Assembly: GCA_029883265.1 (NCBI GenBank) | Contig: JAOUJM010000014.1 | Span: 1 to 42,762, forward strand | DNA: 42,762 nt | Direction: 5' to 3' | DNA from: Gammaproteobacteria bacterium | GTDB lineage: Bacteria; Pseudomonadota; Gammaproteobacteria; S012-40 | Shown here: in pieces, positions 5,304 through 18,649 of the stretch | Layout: the number at the start of each line of letters is the position of its first letter | How positions within the stretch are numbered: the stretch's first letter is position 1 | Made by a program: the position numbers and the translations under genes | Notes under the pieces: model-generated | Databases searched by the model: none | Seen by the model: the letters and a program-made list of their open reading frames with translations, nothing else | Told to the model about the DNA's origin: nothing

Positions 5304-7586
5304 TTGAATGCCGGACAGTTACAACAGAAGTTAGTTGAGCTCAAATTAAAGTTTAAACAATCCTTGCCGGATCGTCTGACTCAAATTCAACAATTGTGGG
5401 AACGTGTATTGGCAGATGCCTCTGCTGATGCTGACTTAAATGAATTATTGCGAGTCGTGCATAGTTTGGTTGGCGCAGGAGGGACTTATGGCGCTGACGC
5501 AATTTCCAAGACGGCAAGAGTGGCAGAGAATACCTTGCGCCCTTTAGTTGATCAAGCATCCATTCAACTAGATGCGCACACGCAGTCACAAATTAATCAT
5601 TTAGTACTGAAACTGGCTGAAGAAATTGATGATTGGCATCCTGAGTTAGATCACAATGAATTTATTGAAGCAGAGTCTGGGTTTGCAATTCAATCACTGA
5701 CGCTGTTTGTTCCGAAAGACTGTAAGGACTATGAAGAATTCAGCCGAGAAATTCACTTAAAACATTTGCGGCTCAATTATGTACACCAAGACCCATTGAG
5801 TGTACCTGAAGATTTGCTCAACTCGAATTCGATCGTTATTGTTGATGATGCAGTGCTTGCAGATAAAAATAAAAGTGAGCATTTGCTTGATTACTTAAGC
5901 CAGCTCAAACAAAAATGTCCCAATTTAATTGTCTTGTCGGACAGCCAGGATCTTGCTTTGCGGTTAGCCGTGGTTCGTGCGGAAATCAATGAGTTTTTTT
6001 TAAAGCCAGTGAATAATACTCGTTTGTTAAAGGTCGTAGAGCGTTTAATCGAGGAACAAGTTGAACAAATCTACCATGTTTTAATTGTCGACGATGATCA
6101 AGATCTGGCGCAATATTATCACGCAGTAATGCAATCCAATCAAATACGCAGTACCTTGGTGTCCGACCCGCTCAATGCTTTTGAAGTTTTGCAACAAACC
6201 CATGTCGATTTGATTTTGCTCGATATTTCCATGCCGAATTGCAACGGTTTTGAAGTTGCGCGCATGATTCGACAAGACGAGCGTTTAGCCGAGGTGCCTA
6301 TTATTTTTCATTCCGTAGAACGGGTGCCTGAGAAACAAATTACGGCCTTAAACGTTGGCGCTGACGATTTTATTGAGAAACCGTGCAATATTGAATATTT
6401 AATAAAGTCCATCAAAGCACGGATTCGTCGTGCAGACTCGGTGCGTCGTTTACATCGTGAACTGGAAATTGCTTTTGCAGAAATTGGTCGGCGTGATTAT
6501 GCCATGAATAAGCATAGCATTGTTAGCGTTGCAGACACGGCGGGCAATATTATCTATGCAAACGATAAATTTGTTTCTATTAGTGGATATGCCTACGAGG
6601 AGTTAATTGGCAATAACCATCGTTTAGTCAAGTCCGGTGTTCATGACCGTTCGTTTTACGAAAACATGTGGACTACAATATCCCAAGGTGAAACTTGGCA
6701 AGGCATTATTTGTAATCGAGCAAAAAGTGGTGAGTGTTATTGGGTGGAGTCGACTATCGTTCCATTTATCGACGGCGATGGGCTGCCCTATCAGTATGTG
6801 TCGGTACGTACGGATATTACGGCGTTTATTTTATCACAACAGAATCTAAAGCTGGCCAAACACCAGGCAGAAAATGCCAATAAAGCTAAATCAGAATTTC
6901 TTTCGCGCATGAGTCATGAGTTGCGTACTCCGCTCAATGCAATCCTAGGGTTTTCTCAGCTCCTAGGATTAGATGAAGAGAATCCGATATCACAAAATCA
7001 GCGGGATAGTGTAGGTGAAATTGTTAATGCTGGCAGTCATTTATTATCGTTAATCAATGATGTTTTGGATTTGTCAAAAATTGAAGCGGGTTATGTGCAT
7101 GTGAATTTGCAGCCCATTAATGCAACACAGGTATTGAAGGAATGTGTGGCTACTGTACAAACTCAAGCAGCCCAGCAGAGCATCAATATTGAGTATGTGC
7201 AAATTGACGATGCGGCAACGGTCATGGCTGATCGGGTGCGATTAAAGCAAGTGTTACTCAATTTATTGTCAAATGCGATCAAATATAATAAACCTCATGG
7301 AAAAATTATGCTGACGGTGCGCAATAGTAGTGACACTCAAGTAGACATGCTGGTTGCTGATACGGGGATTGGTATTGCTGAGGACAAACAAAAGGAAATG
7401 TTTCAGTCGTTCCATCGTCTCGGTGCTGAGCATAGTGATATTGAAGGTACAGGCATCGGCTTAGTGATTACAAAAAATATTGTTGAGCTGATGAATGCCA
7501 AGTTGAGTTTTGACAGCAAGCTCGGTGAGGGTACTTGTTTCACTGTAAGTTTGCCATGTGCGAAACGTCAGGCAAGTATAATATAG
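5304..7586 (+). CDS. Hybrid sensor histidine kinase (HPt-REC-like-REC-PAS-HisKA-HATPase)
   Basis: This 760-residue cytoplasmic protein has no evident membrane segment. Residues 1-115 look like an HPt domain with VVHSLVGAGGTYG, phosphoacceptor candidate His53. Residues about 120-250 form a degenerate receiver. Residues about 257-375 are a full receiver: VLIVDDDQ, LILLDISMPNCNGF with Asp307, and the Lys of FIEKP. A PAS domain follows at about 400-510, then the dimerisation helix MSHELRTPLNAILGFS with phosphoacceptor His538, and the ATPase domain with NLLSNAIKYN, DTGIGI and GTGIGL. The kinase core is at the C-terminus and the relay domains at the N-terminus, the reverse of the common hybrid kinase. 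The start is a TTG; an upstream ATG in this frame was not found. No partner regulator is adjacent; a PilZ protein is the next gene. Confidence 0.88.
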   Translation: MNAGQLQQKLVELKLKFKQSLPDRLTQIQQLWERVLADASADADLNELLRVVHSLVGAGGTYGADAISKTARVAENTLRPLVDQASIQLDAHTQSQINHLVLKLAEEIDDWHPELDHNEFIEAESGFAIQSLTLFVPKDCKDYEEFSREIHLKHLRLNYVHQDPLSVPEDLLNSNSIVIVDDAVLADKNKSEHLLDYLSQLKQKCPNLIVLSDSQDLALRLAVVRAEINEFFLKPVNNTRLLKVVERLIEEQVEQIYHVLIVDDDQDLAQYYHAVMQSNQIRSTLVSDPLNAFEVLQQTHVDLILLDISMPNCNGFEVARMIRQDERLAEVPIIFHSVERVPEKQITALNVGADDFIEKPCNIEYLIKSIKARIRRADSVRRLHRELEIAFAEIGRRDYAMNKHSIVSVADTAGNIIYANDKFVSISGYAYEELIGNNHRLVKSGVHDRSFYENMWTTISQGETWQGIICNRAKSGECYWVESTIVPFIDGDGLPYQYVSVRTDITAFILSQQNLKLAKHQAENANKAKSEFLSRMSHELRTPLNAILGFSQLLGLDEENPISQNQRDSVGEIVNAGSHLLSLINDVLDLSKIEAGYVHVNLQPINATQVLKECVATVQTQAAQQSINIEYVQIDDAATVMADRVRLKQVLLNLLSNAIKYNKPHGKIMLTVRNSSDTQVDMLVADTGIGIAEDKQKEMFQSFHRLGAEHSDIEGTGIGLVITKNIVELMNAKLSFDSKLGEGTCFTVSLPCAKRQASII

Positions 7587-7610: not shown

Positions 7611-7637
7611 TAAAAAAAGGGGCTGAAAATCAGCCCC
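7611..7637 (-). terminator. Intrinsic terminator acting on the minus strand
   Basis: An 8-base-pair perfect stem (GGGGCTGA 7619-7626, loop of 3, TCAGCCCC 7630-7637) has a run of seven A on its left side, which is a U tract for minus-strand transcripts. On the plus strand it is followed by TGTAAAAAAG, so it is a poor terminator for the kinase gene upstream. Confidence 0.68.
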
Positions 7638-7726
7638 TGTAAAAAAGGGAGGATGAGAGAAGAAAGTCAATTCTTCTTGCCTCTAGGAGGCAGTTTGTAT
7701 AATGCAGTAGCTATGCCAGGAAAATT
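7611..7726 (-). ncRNA. Candidate small RNA, about 115 nt, ending in a strong terminator
   Basis: On the minus strand a TTGACA (7754-7759) and a TACAAT (7733-7738) with a 15-base spacer could start a transcript near 7726. Reading leftward it would form TGCCTC/GAGGCA (7678-7692), then AGAAGAA/TTCTTCT (7658-7677), then an unpaired stretch TCATCCTCCC, then GGGGCTGA/TCAGCCCC followed by seven T. Two CCTCC segments could pair with ribosome-binding sites, a feature of several known small regulatory RNAs. The 15-base spacer is shorter than ideal. I do not recognise the RNA family. It lies between two plus-strand genes and has no minus-strand gene to terminate, which is why I favour an independent RNA. 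Confidence 0.42.
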
Positions 7727-7864
7727 TATTAAATTGTAACCGTTTCTTTTTTTTGTCAACTGACATGTTCACCAGAAATTCTATTTACAGTACTAAGTGG
7801 TTAAAGGATGAGTGCCTATGGTCGATACTTTTCTAAGCCATTGTTTTCTATTAAGAGGGCTAAC

Positions 7865-8227
7865 ATGGACAAAAATCGGCGATCTCATGAACGACGTAGC
7901 ATTGACCCTAGTGATAAAATGCCCGGTCGTTTTATTATTCAAGTTGGTGAAAACGAGTATGAGTTTTCCCAAGTCTCCGATGTGTCAGTCTCTGGAATGG
8001 GACTTAGTTTAGCGGTTGCGATAGAAAAAGATACGGAAGTGGTGTTGCGTTATGAGTCTGATGATATGGGATTAGCCTTACATGGCAAGATTATGTGGCA
8101 AAGTAATGCCGAAACCGATACTCATTTCCGATATGGAGTTCAATTCGCTCCTGAAGATGCAGATACCAACGTCATGTTTTTCATGGCGCTTAGAGAATAT
8201 ATTGATCCATTTGACGAAGCGATCTAA
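7865..8227 (+). CDS. PilZ domain protein, probable cyclic di-GMP receptor
   Basis: This 120-residue single-domain PilZ protein carries the two cyclic di-GMP binding motifs: an Arg-rich RRSHERR at the N-terminus (RxxxR type) and DVSVSG (DxSxxG). The rest gives the expected beta barrel, ending near RYGVQFAPED. I chose the ATG at 7865 because AGAGGG lies about seven bases before it and the motif begins soon after. The frame is open to an ATG at 7808, but that start has its AAGG only one base away and adds a 19-residue tail without family support. Single-domain PilZ proteins act by binding a partner; the partner is not evident. The gene follows the hybrid kinase and the candidate small RNA. Confidence 0.87.
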   Translation: MDKNRRSHERRSIDPSDKMPGRFIIQVGENEYEFSQVSDVSVSGMGLSLAVAIEKDTEVVLRYESDDMGLALHGKIMWQSNAETDTHFRYGVQFAPEDADTNVMFFMALREYIDPFDEAI

Positions 8228-8310
8228 TCATCACTGTTCCAAACCCCCAACCATTGACTTTATAACGAAAAAGTCCGGAATTTCGACGCTAGGCGTTGAG
8301 AATATGTCGG

Positions 8311-8319
8311 TGCTATAAT
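8311..8319 (+). promoter_or_regulatory. Extended -10 promoter ahead of argJ
   Basis: TGC directly followed by TATAAT (8314-8319) is a perfect extended -10 element, 30 bases before the argJ ATG. The -35 region is poor, which is common when the TGN extension is present. Transcription would start near 8326 and cover argJ, fkpB and ispH. Confidence 0.6.
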
Positions 8320-8349
8320 ACGCGCTTTCCGCATAATCAGGTTGTAGTA

Positions 8350-9576
8350 ATGGCTGTAGGTTTACAAGCTCCCCACAATATTCTTTCCATTCCCGGTGTT
8401 CGGCTCGCTGCGGTGAAAGCAGGTATTAAATACGCAGATCGTTATGATTTAGTCATGCTCGAATTGCATGAGCAAGCCACAAGCGTGGGTGTGTTTACGC
8501 GTAATGCATTCTGCGCGGCGCCCGTGCAAGTCGCAAAACAACATTTGACTGCAGTTGAGTATAAGGCCCGTGCTTTTCTCATCAACACCGGTTATGCCAA
8601 TGCCGGTACAGGTGAGGCTGGACTGGATGTAGCCAAACAATGTTGCCAGGCATTGGCCAATGCGCTTGAGCTTAATGAACAAGCAATTCTGCCGTTTTCA
8701 ACCGGTGTTATCGGTGAAGCCATACCGTTAGATAGAGTCACCCAGTCCTTGCCCGCGCTGGTTAATGCTTTGCATGAAAATAATTGGCCACTCGCTGCTC
8801 AAGGCATAATGACCACGGACACTATCGCCAAGGCTTTTTCACTTCAAGGCCAATGGCAAGGAGAGAGCTTTCGTTTGACGGGTATGGTTAAAGGCTCGGG
8901 CATGATTCGTCCTAATATGGCAACCATGTTAGCCTTTATCGCGACAGATTTATCGATTAGTGCGCCGGTATTGGATCAAGCCTTACACCAAGCGGTTGAG
9001 CAGTCTTTTAATCGGGTCACGGTGGACGGCGATACCTCTACCAATGATGCGTGCATGTTAACTGCCACAGGTCATAGCACTATCGCCACACTACAATCCA
9101 GTGATAATGAGTTTTATGCTTATTTTCTTGATAAATTAACCGAGCTATGTCATTTGCTTTCACAAGCACTGGTGCGTGATGGTGAAGGTGCGACTAAGTT
9201 TATCACCATCCAAGTGAAGCAAGGCGCAAGCGTGCAGGAATGTGAAGATGTTGCATTTACTATCGCGCATTCTCCGTTGGTTAAAAGTGCGTTTTTTGCA
9301 TCCGATCCAAATTGGGGTCGTATTCTTGCGGCTGTGGGTCGGGCGCCGCTAGCGCAATTAGATTTAAATGGCGTGAGCTTATACTTAAACCAACGTTGTT
9401 TGGTGAAAAATGGCCAACCGGATTCAGCCTACCACGAACAACTCGGTGCCAGTGAAATGCAAAAAGATGAAATAACCGTGACAGTTGAGCTGGGGCGGGG
9501 TGATGATGAAGCCACTGTGTGGACTTCAGATTTATCTTATGACTATGTGCGCATTAATGCCGAGTATCGAAGCTAA
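8350..9576 (+). CDS. argJ: Glutamate N-acetyltransferase / amino-acid acetyltransferase ArgJ
   Basis: This 408-residue protein is bifunctional-type ArgJ of arginine biosynthesis, which moves acetyl from N-acetylornithine to glutamate. The self-cleavage and active-site segment MVKGSGMIRPNMATMLAF is intact, with Thr192 as the expected nucleophile that becomes the N-terminus of the beta chain. Other family segments are TGVIGE, VDGDTSTNDA and SDPNWGRILAAVGR. I chose the ATG at 8350 because it starts MAVGLQAP, the usual N-terminus; the frame runs open to 8296, but the extra part contains the promoter. It overlaps the next gene by one base. Sequence alone does not show whether it also accepts acetyl-CoA. 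Confidence 0.95.
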   Translation: MAVGLQAPHNILSIPGVRLAAVKAGIKYADRYDLVMLELHEQATSVGVFTRNAFCAAPVQVAKQHLTAVEYKARAFLINTGYANAGTGEAGLDVAKQCCQALANALELNEQAILPFSTGVIGEAIPLDRVTQSLPALVNALHENNWPLAAQGIMTTDTIAKAFSLQGQWQGESFRLTGMVKGSGMIRPNMATMLAFIATDLSISAPVLDQALHQAVEQSFNRVTVDGDTSTNDACMLTATGHSTIATLQSSDNEFYAYFLDKLTELCHLLSQALVRDGEGATKFITIQVKQGASVQECEDVAFTIAHSPLVKSAFFASDPNWGRILAAVGRAPLAQLDLNGVSLYLNQRCLVKNGQPDSAYHEQLGASEMQKDEITVTVELGRGDDEATVWTSDLSYDYVRINAEYRS

Positions 9577-11879: not shown

Positions 11880-14477
11880 ATGACCGTTGATATGTCGCAG
11901 TTCTACCAAACATTTCTCGAAGAAAGCTTTGAGGGTTTGGATACGATGGAATCATGCTTGCTCAATTTAGATGTGGGTGATGCGGATATTGAGGCGGTAA
12001 ATACTATTTTTCGCGCTGCGCATTCGATCAAGGGCGGTGCTGCTACGTTTGGTTTCGATGAAGTTGCAGAGTTTACTCATGTGGTTGAAACGCTTTTGGA
12101 TCAAATTCGATCCGGTGAGCGTCCTGTCGAGCAGAACTTGGTCGACTATTTTCTGCAATCGGTAGACTGCTTGCGCACGATGTTGCACGCCGTGCAGTCA
12201 GAGGCACCCGTCATGACAGACGATGTGCGTGCTTTAATGCAGGCATTAGAAGCGGCTTTGGGCGGCGAGCATGTCGCGACTGTCGAGTCATCAACATCAG
12301 ACGCGCAGACCACGAATAGTGATGGATCCGGTGGCCAATGGAGCATCCAGTTTTCGCCACATGCCACGTTAATGAAAACAGGAAATGATCCTGTCAGAAT
12401 TCTAAGAGAGTTAAGCAGTTTAGGTGATATGACTGCTATGCTCGATGTCACATCTTTACCGGTCTTGAGTGAAATCGATCCCGAAGTGTGTTATCTCAAG
12501 TGGACGATTGATTTGAATACAGATGCTGCAGAAGCCGATATAGCGGAGGTTTTCGAATGGGTTAGCGATGATTGTGACCTGCAAATTAATTCAAGTATGG
12601 TGCAGCAGTCAAGTGAGCAAAGTACCGCTCCAGTGTCCCATGAGAAAAAAATAACCCCAGATGCGGAGGCACCGGAAAATGGCTTGGACATCGTCAGCCT
12701 CGAAACCAGTTTTAAATTGTTACAGCCTCAGGCCAATGAATTGGCGAAACGTTTTTATGAAACCTTGTTTTTGCGTTACCCACAAGTAAAAGAATTATTT
12801 AAGAATACAAGCATTGAACAGCAGCAAGGAAAATTGATTGCTGCTTTGCAGACGGTAATGCAACAAATACGTGAGCCAGAAAAACTTGCGGATACCGTCT
12901 TTGCCTTAGGCCAACGGCATCAGAACTACGGTGCTGAAAAAGATCACTATGCATTGGTGGGCGAAACCTTAATTTATGTTATGGCTGATATGGCGGGTGA
13001 ACATTGGACAAGTAAAATAGAACAAGCCTGGCGTCAAGCGTTGAGCATGATTGCTGAAATCATGTTAAGCGCCTACTCAACTAAAACGCCCGTTGCCTCT
13101 GATAAAGTGACAGATGCAAAACCTAGTGGAGCAGCTCCAGCGCCAGCAAAACCCAGTGTCACCAGCGACAAAAACACGGCTAGCACGGCTCCCAAAATGG
13201 CGAGTGGTGAAAGTGGTTCCATCCGTGTAAGTACTGACAAGATTGATGGTTTAATTAATATGGTAGGTGAGTTGGTCATTACTCAATCCATGTTGGGTCA
13301 GCTTGGTGAAGATATGGATATGAGCAAAATCGAAAAATTGCGTGACGGTTTGGCTCAGCTTGAGCGCAATACACGTGAATTACAAGAAAGTGTTATGCAG
13401 ATTCGTATGCTACCTATTAGTTTTGCATTTCAACGTTTCCCTCGCATGGTGCGTGACTTACAGACTAAGTTGGGCAAGCAAATCGAATTGAAATTATCAG
13501 GTGAACAAACCGAACTTGATAAAACAGTCATGGAAAAAATTGGTGATCCATTGGTTCATTTGGTGCGTAACTCAGTGGATCATGGTATTGAATTGCCTGC
13601 AGAGCGCGTTAAAGCAGGTAAACCTGAAAAAGGTGTAGTGCATCTGGATGCATATCACCAGGGTGGAAATATAGTTATCGAAATTAATGATGATGGCGCC
13701 GGTTTAAACAAGGAACGTATTCTAGAAAAAGCACGGAGCCAAGGCGTGGTAGGTGCAGATGAAGAGCTCACTGATGAACGAATTTATGATTTGATTTTTC
13801 AGCCTGGATTCTCAACTGCCGCTGAAGTGAGCGATGTCTCTGGGCGTGGCGTAGGCATGGATGTGGTTAAGCGGAATATCCGAGAACTCGGCGGCAGTAT
13901 TGAAGTATCGAGTCAACCAGGGGTTGGTAGCAGTTTCAAGATTCGTTTACCGTTGACTCTGGCTATTCTTGATGGTCAATTGGTCCGTGTTGGTAATGAA
14001 ACCTACATTATTCCGTTGGTTTCAATTATTGAATCGCTGCAAGTGAAAAATGAAAACGTAAATGCAATTGCGGGTCAAGCAGAATTATACAAGCTGCGTG
14101 AAGAATATATTCCGATTATGCGATTGTATGAAGTGTTTGATGTTGACCCAGATTCTGAAGATTTAACAAAAGGTTTATTAGTTGTGGTTGAAGGTGATGG
14201 CCAACGCGCCGGCGTCTTTGTTGATGATCTGCTGGGCCAACAACAAGTGGTAATAAAAAGTTTGGAAACAAATTTTAAGCGCATTGAAGGAATATCAGGT
14301 GCAACGATATTGGGCGATGGAACGGTTGCGTTAATCCTGGATGTCGGTGGCATTGTCAAAGTTTCACAAAACACCAAAGGCCGACCTAAACGATCAAAAT
14401 CAGCAGTGGATAAATCCAAAAAGGACCTCGATGAAAAACTGCTTGAAATAAGTGATGGTGCGAATAAGGCGGCATAG
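11880..14477 (+). CDS. cheA: Chemotaxis histidine kinase CheA with an inserted globin domain
   Basis: This CheA has 865 residues, longer than most. Domains in order: P1 HPt (about 1-110, FRAAHSIKGGAATFGF with His48); a P2-like region (about 150-245, with FSPHATLMKTGNDPVRILRE); a globin domain (about 270-400); a Pro/Ala-rich linker; dimerisation P3 (about 440-510); ATPase P4 (LVHLVRNSVDHGIE, INDDGAGL, GRGVGMDVVK); and P5 (about 695-830). The globin part shows RFYETLF with Tyr293 (B10), EQQQGKL with Gln315 (E7) and Leu319 (E11), LGQRHQNYG with His347 (F8) and DHYALVGETL with the G5 Tyr, as in flavohaemoglobins. An extra domain at this point is absent from standard CheA. It may let haem ligands act directly on the kinase; haem binding is inferred. 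Confidence 0.93.
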   Translation: MTVDMSQFYQTFLEESFEGLDTMESCLLNLDVGDADIEAVNTIFRAAHSIKGGAATFGFDEVAEFTHVVETLLDQIRSGERPVEQNLVDYFLQSVDCLRTMLHAVQSEAPVMTDDVRALMQALEAALGGEHVATVESSTSDAQTTNSDGSGGQWSIQFSPHATLMKTGNDPVRILRELSSLGDMTAMLDVTSLPVLSEIDPEVCYLKWTIDLNTDAAEADIAEVFEWVSDDCDLQINSSMVQQSSEQSTAPVSHEKKITPDAEAPENGLDIVSLETSFKLLQPQANELAKRFYETLFLRYPQVKELFKNTSIEQQQGKLIAALQTVMQQIREPEKLADTVFALGQRHQNYGAEKDHYALVGETLIYVMADMAGEHWTSKIEQAWRQALSMIAEIMLSAYSTKTPVASDKVTDAKPSGAAPAPAKPSVTSDKNTASTAPKMASGESGSIRVSTDKIDGLINMVGELVITQSMLGQLGEDMDMSKIEKLRDGLAQLERNTRELQESVMQIRMLPISFAFQRFPRMVRDLQTKLGKQIELKLSGEQTELDKTVMEKIGDPLVHLVRNSVDHGIELPAERVKAGKPEKGVVHLDAYHQGGNIVIEINDDGAGLNKERILEKARSQGVVGADEELTDERIYDLIFQPGFSTAAEVSDVSGRGVGMDVVKRNIRELGGSIEVSSQPGVGSSFKIRLPLTLAILDGQLVRVGNETYIIPLVSIIESLQVKNENVNAIAGQAELYKLREEYIPIMRLYEVFDVDPDSEDLTKGLLVVVEGDGQRAGVFVDDLLGQQQVVIKSLETNFKRIEGISGATILGDGTVALILDVGGIVKVSQNTKGRPKRSKSAVDKSKKDLDEKLLEISDGANKAA

Positions 14478-15832: not shown

Positions 15833-18649
15833 ATGACAGATAAAAAAAATGATTTAGGTTTTGACCCATTGGCATGGGCCGATGATGGGAGTAATAACTC
15901 ATTGAATATTGAGTTGCTAGAGCAAAGCTTTGCCGCACTCGCGCCAAGAGCAGGGGAGTTGGTGAAACGGTTCTATGATGATTTGTACTCGCGTTATCCT
16001 GCGGTAAGGCCACTATTTAAAAATACTACATCAGAAGCACAACAGACTAAACTTGTGGCCGCTTTACAATTGGTTATTAAACAATTGCGGGATCCTTCGC
16101 AATTGACAAACACATTACAACAACTTGGCAAGAAGCATCAGCAATATGGAGCGATTGAGGCTCACTATTCAGCAGTGGCGGAAACTTTGTTGGCGGTAAT
16201 GGCGGATATGGCAGGTGACTTATGGACACCTGAAGTCGCTAATGCTTGGAGCCAAGCATTAACAAAAATTGCAGAAATAATGCTTGGAGCTTATGAATCG
16301 AATGAGGGGGTCACTATGTCCACGTCAAGCTCAGATAACTCAAATGTCCTTGGTGATTTAAAAATTATCACTGATATCATGGATAATGCGCCGGTCAATA
16401 TTATGATCGCGGATGATGATGAAAATGTGATTTATGTAAATAATCGCGCCAAGGCAGTTTTGACGGAACTCGAGTCAGAGCTACAAAAATATTTACCTCA
16501 GTTTAGTGTTGCGACTGTGGTGGGGGGAAGTATTCATCGCTATCATAAAGATCCACAAGCGATTAAGAATATCATTCAAGGTTTACGGCCGGGAGAGTCG
16601 CGCAAAGGCGAAATTAAACCCGGTCCGTTTGTGTTTGAACATGAAACACGACCTTTAATGAACGCTAATGGTCAACGCCTTGGTTGGGTGGTGCAATGGC
16701 ATGATGTAACCGAGCGTCGCAAAAAAGAAGAGGAGGCTTTCCGTCTATTTCGTGCGGTGGATAGTGCGCAAACTGCGATGATGATGATTGATCGTGATTT
16801 AACTATCACTTACATCAATAAATCGACGGAGGAGCTGCTCAAACGAAACCAGGAGGATTTGGCAAAAATTTATCCTGGTTTTAACGCAAATAATATTATT
16901 GGCACCTGTATCGATATATTCCATAAAAACCCAGCGCATCAACGCAAAATATTAGGTGATGCGGCCAATCTACCATTTGAAACCGATATTCAAGTCGGTC
17001 CATTGATTTTTCATATCCGTGTGGGTGCAATGAATGATCTGGATGGAAATTATATTGGCTGTACCCTAGAGTGGTCCGATGTGACCGATCTGCGTGCAAA
17101 AGAAATTGAAGTTGCACGTCTCAAGTCAGCGGTTGATGGCGCAGCGACCAACTTAATGCTGTGTAATGAAAATTTTGAGATTACTTATGTGAATCCATCA
17201 GTACAGAAAATGATGCAAGCACGTCAGGCTGATTTGAGGCAAGTGTTTCCAGGATTTGATGCGAGTAATCTAATTGGTCAAAATATTGATCAGTTTCACA
17301 AAAATCCGGCGCATCAACGTTCATTATTAAGTGATGTAAATCGCTTGCCAGCACGCGCGCCGATTCATGTGGCTGACTTGGATTTTGAAGTTAACGCTAC
17401 CGCTATTTTGAGTCCATCGGGTGAATGGATGGGTAATATGGTGGAATGGAAAGATATTACCGAGCAAAAAAATGCGGAACGACAAATTGAACAACTCATT
17501 ATTGCTGCATCCAGTGGAGATTTGAATACGCGTATTGATGTGAGCAAATTCGATGGATTTTTACGTGAACTTGGCCAACAAATCAATGCTTTGTTGGAGG
17601 CTGTGGTCAGTCCAATCCGTGAAAGTACGCGTGTGGTAAAAGCCTTGTCTGTGGGCGATTTGCGTGAACTAATGACGGGTGAGTTTGAGGGTGAGTTTGC
17701 AGTTATGCGCGATTCCTTGAATCAATCCATGAACAATTTGAAAGACATGGTGAGTAAAATCAATAGTTCGACCACAAATATGTCTTCGGCGGCGGCAGAA
17801 ATTGCACAAGGTAATGCGGATTTATCACAACGCACAGAAGAGCAAGCATCCTCACTCGAAGAAACGGCATCGAGCATGGAAGAATTAACCAGTACAGTTA
17901 AACAAAATGCTGACAATGCTCGCCAAGCAAATCAACTGGCCTCAGGTGCTCGTGAGCAAGCGGAAAAAGGCGGCGATGTGGTGCAGCGTGCGGTGTCAGC
18001 CATGAGCGAGATTAATAGTAGTAGTAAAAAGATTTCAGACATTATCGGTGTTATTGATGAGATTGCATTCCAAACCAATTTGTTAGCACTTAATGCCGCA
18101 GTTGAAGCCGCCCGTGCGGGTGAACAAGGGCGTGGTTTTGCGGTGGTGGCTGGTGAAGTTCGTAATCTGGCGCAACGCAGTGCCGGTGCCGCAAAAGAAA
18201 TTAAATCTTTGATTCAGGACAGTGTTGAAAAAGTGGATGACGGAACCAAGCTGGTTGATCAATCGGGACAAACCTTGACGGAGATTGTTGCCGCCGTTAA
18301 AAAAGTAAGCGATATTATTGCTGAAATCGCGGCTGCAAGTCAGGAGCAATCCTCGGGTATTGAGCAAGTCAATAAAGCCGTCACACAAATGGACGAAGTG
18401 ACTCAACAGAATGCGGCACTAGTTGAAGAGGCAGCTGCAGCCAGTGAGTCCATGGACGAGCAAGCGAAAGGTTTACAAACCTTAATGCAGTTTTTCAAAT
18501 TGGATGAATCACATAGTTCTGGGATTGGGATTCCGCCGGCGCCACAAATGTCATCTGCTCCACGAGCAACCGCACCTAGCGCACCAAGTCGTCCAATGCG
18601 AGGCAATGCGGCGCCATCAACTGATGATGATGAATGGCAGGAATTCTAA
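15833..18649 (+). CDS. Soluble chemoreceptor with globin, three PAS and two HAMP-like units
   Basis: This 938-residue methyl-accepting protein has no membrane segment. Residues about 26-157 are a globin domain with RFYDDLY (Tyr48), the AQQTKL stretch for E7/E11 and LGKKHQQYG (proximal His102). Three PAS domains follow, with repeated HKDP/HKNP motifs (His238, His364, His489) and a Trp in the last strand (Trp289, Trp414, Trp539), each pair 50-51 apart. Two HAMP-like units lie at about 560-650. The signalling domain ends in the standard tip [20 protein letters not shown], and the C-terminus EWQEF resembles the CheR/CheB-binding pentapeptide. The PAS pattern recalls Aer2 of Pseudomonas, whose PAS binds haem b through a comparable His and Trp. 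It is probably a multi-haem gas or redox receptor; ligand not shown. Confidence 0.92.

Follow-up and report, generated by a model that had tools for sequence, protein, structure and literature searches.

A candidate sigma54-dependent small RNA gene with a predicted anti-ribosome-binding-site core, divergent from a PilZ gene in a family of Gammaproteobacteria

The window analyzed here is a stretch of 42,762 nucleotides of contig JAOUJM010000014.1 from Gammaproteobacteria bacterium, a host lineage known mainly through metagenome assemblies. A hybrid histidine kinase gene (positions 5304-7586, plus strand; Hpt, REC, PAS, HisKA and HATPase domains) and a PilZ-domain gene (7865-8227, plus strand; PF07238, 2.5e-11) are separated by a gap whose minus strand probably holds, judging from its sequence features, a conserved and previously uncatalogued small regulatory RNA (sRNA) gene that is divergent from the PilZ gene. 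An sRNA gene on the minus strand of this gap had been proposed in the original prediction; its conservation supports the gene, but the promoter and the length assigned to it do not hold. The PilZ gene is followed by argJ (7865-9576), an arrangement also seen in genomes G001, G003, G011 and G012.

The gap contains a Rho-independent terminator with a 9-bp stem and a run of seven T (7612-7638, minus strand). This GC-rich hairpin, already recognized in the original prediction, is the best result of the terminator scan. The T run is present on the minus strand only, indicating that the hairpin is not a terminator for the kinase, and the earlier observation that there is no minus-strand gene for it to serve is borne out on the sequence. 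Terminator-like hairpins are common (6 were found in the region versus 5.4 expected), and it could be argued that the locus is not a gene, the hairpin having arisen by chance or marking the end of the plus-strand kinase transcript. This explanation is highly improbable, as the strand of the T run speaks against it and the promoter, core and spacing are conserved across genera.

The element is carried by 8 of the 13 genomes of the family (window genome included), across genera, and in seven of these eight members it shares a contig with a PilZ gene from which it is divergent. The copies in G001, G005 and G009 were recognized by reading the sequence upstream of PilZ in relatives. Those in G003 and G004, where the PilZ gene is on the same contig, came from a search with the core only, in which up to 3 mismatches were allowed and no promoter was required, and the copies in G002 and G006 were added by a covariance model. 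The G002 copy is identical to L046, from an uncultured Ectothiorhodospiraceae MAG. The five remaining family genomes gave no credible match; some are incomplete, and the G011 contig stops beside PilZ. A direct DNA (BLAST) search of 56 relatives and plasmids returned only the self-match because the element is too diverged, and a PilZ-based search for related loci across genome contigs returned none. Of the 71 stretches picked out by a pattern scan of genome contigs, just four (L046, L087, L090 and L097) are genuine. A cluster of look-alikes in Idiomarina, Marinobacter and Modicisalibacter was rejected, as it consists of one shared, coding-looking sequence that has no terminator.

The feature that positions the RNA is a sigma54 (-24/-12) promoter, TGGCATAGCTACTGC (7704-7718, minus strand). 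It follows the pattern TGGCAY-N6-TGC, which is the GG-N10-GC sigma54 element and is found only once in the whole window on both strands (0.25 expected per strand). The promoter is present at constant spacing in all eight family members. Its mean pairwise identity is 73% in an alignment anchored on the promoter itself, so that its invariance there is partly conditional on the anchor, while the upstream flank in the same alignment shows 25-28%, which is the level of random sequence. A fair test is provided by the core-only search, in which the promoter was not demanded and was nevertheless found in 6/6 matches. The distance from the TGC to the first stem-loop (SL1) is 11 nt in every member (seven measured together, plus G006), and SL1 begins with an invariant UG (+1/+2) in all eight. 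Since sigma54 initiates approximately 12 nt past the -12 element, this spacing places +1 at the start of SL1. The sequence thus predicts transcription initiation at 7692 and an RNA of 81 nt (7612-7692, minus strand), the 3' end of which falls in the T run of the terminator. Genes for sigma54 itself (rpoN) were found in 13/13 family genomes. Inspection by eye of the sequence upstream of the promoter in the members showed no conserved activator (UAS) motif. In the window, a perfect 12-nt palindrome, TGTCAGTTGACA (7754-7765), lies upstream of the sigma54 promoter and is a possible activator site; a similar sequence, TCAGTTAACA, occurs at a similar place in G003 only.

The original prediction had instead placed a TTGACA-15-TACAAT promoter further upstream and an RNA of about 115 nt, and the corresponding alternative is a sigma70-driven sRNA of that length starting after TACAAT. 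Both hexamers do exist on the minus strand (TTGACA at 7759-7754, TACAAT at 7738-7733), but their role as a promoter is not sustained. The 15-nt spacer falls outside the 16-18 nt accepted by the promoter scan, identity across this region in relatives is that of random sequence, and the conserved promoter sits downstream of it; furthermore, TTGACA is one half of the palindrome (7765-7754). Consequently, a sigma70-driven RNA is considered distinctly unlikely, and the length suggested by the sigma54 promoter spacing is about 81 nt rather than 115.

The predicted RNA is strongly structured, with a folding energy of -31.2 kcal/mol versus -16.6 for shuffled sequences (z = -5.1, 0/200). At its 5' end, SL1 (7678-7692, minus strand; UGCCUC CUA GAGGCA) has a 6-bp stem that forms in 8/8 members, with changes on both sides. 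Similarly, the terminator stem in relatives is rebuilt through compensatory changes. Covariation over these two stems is 0.874 versus 0.227 in shuffles; manual trimming and fitting of the alignment make the 100% stem pairing partly a matter of construction, while the stem sequences themselves are real. A second hairpin is predicted in the window (7658-7677, minus strand), where it pairs with the 5' part of the core. It is missing from G001, G002, G003, G005 and G009, and G004 has an unrelated hairpin. Thus, both hairpins of the original prediction (7692-7678 and 7677-7658, minus strand) are present in the window sequence, and the conservation of stems that it had asked for was found, with paired changes, for SL1 and the terminator in the hand-trimmed alignment. 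The second hairpin does not share this conservation, and a function for it is not supported; it has no counterpart in most relatives.

Between SL1 and the terminator hairpin lies the conserved core, UUUCUUCUCUCAUCCUCCCU (7646-7665, minus strand), a predicted anti-Shine-Dalgarno/anti-start segment. The core, UUCUCUCAUCCUCCCU when read from 7665 to 7646, has a mean pairwise identity of 74% over 23 nt, in contrast to the 25-28% of the flank. Within it, CUCAUCCUCCC has an unpaired probability of 1.00, and the unpaired CTCATCCTCCC reported earlier at 7657-7647 is confirmed. Two CCUCC segments had been proposed as anti-ribosome-binding sites. The second is unpaired and shows the highest conservation in the RNA, but the first is mostly paired inside SL1. 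In 6/8 members, additional exposed C-rich loops are found in SL1 and/or the terminator. Conservation strongly supports reading the element as an uncatalogued regulatory RNA that exposes an anti-ribosome-binding-site segment.

The reading that we favor, with a probability of about 0.68, is that of a stand-alone sigma54-driven gene for a trans-acting sRNA that would repress its targets by pairing with their ribosome-binding sites. First, a predicted enhancer-binding activator would drive RNA polymerase with sigma54 at the promoter. Next, transcription from 7692 on the minus strand would proceed to the terminator near 7612, yielding an 81-nt RNA with, from 5' to 3', a stem-loop, a single-stranded C/U-rich core and a terminator hairpin. 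Finally, the core would pair in trans with the ribosome-binding sites of target mRNAs and block their translation, probably with the assistance of Hfq, the gene for which is present in 13/13 family genomes. Pairing of this kind is the most likely mode of action because the core, 5'-CUCAU-CCUCCC-3', is complementary to GGGAGG, a strong Shine-Dalgarno sequence, followed by AUGAG; the CAU adjoining CCUCCC would match start codon and Shine-Dalgarno together. The masking of part of the core by the second hairpin in the window counts against the favored reading. We infer that the gene is transcribed and is sigma54-dependent in vivo, that its RNA binds Hfq and that it has targets.

The search for targets gave a weak prediction. 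When the 27 gene starts of the window were compared, cheB gave the best pairing (GGGAGGGACCAUGAG; -19.7 kcal/mol, P = 0.017 versus shuffled cores). This result is only suggestive of cheB as a target. Within the window's genome, the exact 11-mer GGGAGGATGAG has no occurrence other than the sRNA, and consequently any target there must pair imperfectly. In other genomes, the exact 11-mer search gave a few ribosome-binding-site matches, none of them recurrent. The che cluster that contains cheB also includes cheA, cheR and cheD. The CheA-type kinase of the window (11880-14474, plus strand; Hpt, H-kinase_dim, HATPase and CheW domains) also contains a globin domain (residues 291-393, 7e-14), which looks unusual, and a chemotaxis receptor (15833-18646, plus strand) combines an N-terminal globin with several PAS domains, HAMP and an MCP signal domain.

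An RNA of this layout might also be the sigma54-driven 5' leader and attenuator of a downstream gene on the same strand, the free RNA being an aborted product. Pairs of Lcl_C (PF07603) genes do lie directly downstream on the same strand in G003 (L020, 4504-6111) and G004 (L024, 278-2463), and G006 is similar in appearance, but its reading frame has no Pfam match. Such a gene is absent from the window, G001, G002, G005 and G009, where the promoter, core and terminator are retained. Downstream, the window has the kinase in antisense, whereas G005 has a convergent gene and G009 a distant, unrelated one. Because the downstream gene differs among genomes, the element is not the leader of one gene, and the attenuator explanation is considered unlikely.

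The element was also compared with known RNAs. Only a tRNA reaches its gathering score in the window among Rfam 15 families, and no family does so in 20 related loci. At the locus itself, cmscan scores for RsaE (RF01820; 19.6 bits) and LhrC (RF00616; 20.8 bits) are far from the gathering values of 79 and 110, as is the score of the alphaproteobacterial ar14 (RF02344; 13.3 bits versus 58.8). RsaE/RoxS and LhrC likewise have an unpaired UCAUCC or CUCCC motif before the terminator, but they are Gram-positive families. In Xanthomonas, according to passages of its description, the sRNA sX13 of about 115 nt uses exposed C-rich motifs to repress mRNAs with G-rich start-proximal motifs (PMC3771888). 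These passages describe three C-rich loops, a constant position downstream of polA and confinement to Xanthomonadaceae, whereas the RNA here has one single-stranded core with one or two exposed C-rich segments and lies beside PilZ; they give no sigma54 promoter for sX13, in contrast to the sigma54-type promoter found here (PMC3771888). FlmE/CJnc230 of Campylobacter is RpoN-dependent, has a putative single-stranded anti-Shine-Dalgarno motif and represses flgM, but it is processed from the flgE mRNA, unlike the present gammaproteobacterial RNA with its own promoter and terminator (PMC11187230). The Pseudomonas RNAs NrsZ and CrcZ have RpoN promoters with a response-regulator activator (PMC8395346). 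Both are longer than the approximately 81 nt predicted here: NrsZ (226 nt, processed) lies next to ntrC and activates rhlA, and CrcZ (407 nt) lies next to cbrB and is an Hfq decoy (PMC8395346).

The example of CrcZ raises the possibility that the RNA is real and sigma54-dependent but acts by titrating a protein, for example Hfq, and not by pairing with mRNA. This is improbable, to about the same degree as the attenuator, given that CrcZ is so much longer, that the conserved core here has a C-rich sequence with complementarity to ribosome-binding sites, and that no repeated protein-binding motif is visible. No description of the RNA was found in the open-licence literature, and on its sequence it would be best filed as a new family among known kinds of sRNA. 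Stand-alone sigma54-dependent sRNAs are few, and this one, read as a trans-acting repressor, would give the regulon of an alternative sigma factor a post-transcriptional repressor arm. As the promoter, start site and seed are precisely predicted, the proposal is directly testable.

Candidates outside the family were sought in 369 genomes sampled across the class. A covariance model that includes the promoter (R1) scored 28.1-43.7 bits in nine genomes that do not belong to the family; the best outside score of a decoy model in which the 17 promoter bases were reversed (R3) was 27.7 bits. One of the nine, L127, looks like chance. The RNA-only model (R2) gave nothing convincing or significant outside the family in the same 369 genomes, and wider homology is therefore not proven; a single core-like match with R2 was noted in L173 (G252). 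The look-alikes may possibly reflect convergence on sigma54 plus a C-rich RNA. A bolder and rather doubtful reading is that the element represents a class of sRNAs, undescribed so far and widespread in Gammaproteobacteria, with a sigma54 promoter, 5' stem-loop, CAU-CCUCCC anti-ribosome-binding-site core and terminator, which would relocate between sites, be duplicated in some genomes and allow sigma54 signals to silence many mRNAs, cheB among the possible targets. If so, these signals would be motility-, nitrogen- or c-di-GMP-linked, and the candidates, if homologous, would fill a gap in sigma54 regulation across the class.

The stronger outside matches recur within taxa. Three are from species of one genus (L120, L121 and L126), in which the element lies beside phoB, two from another single genus (L123 and L130) and two from within one family (L124 and L125). 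L128 counts among the outside candidates as well. In the three phoB-linked loci, the sequence around 1501-1609 resembles a sigma54-promoter RNA with a C-rich loop and a AACCUCCCAC segment. L122 contains two tandem sRNA-like, C-rich copies with sigma54 promoters (1501-1607 and 1678-1789) downstream of ctpA. A location near ctpA is shared by L141, whose core is found again in L159, from the same family. Cores resembling that of the window (TCATYTCTTC...ACYCTCCYT and similar) occur in L122, L141, L159 and L136.
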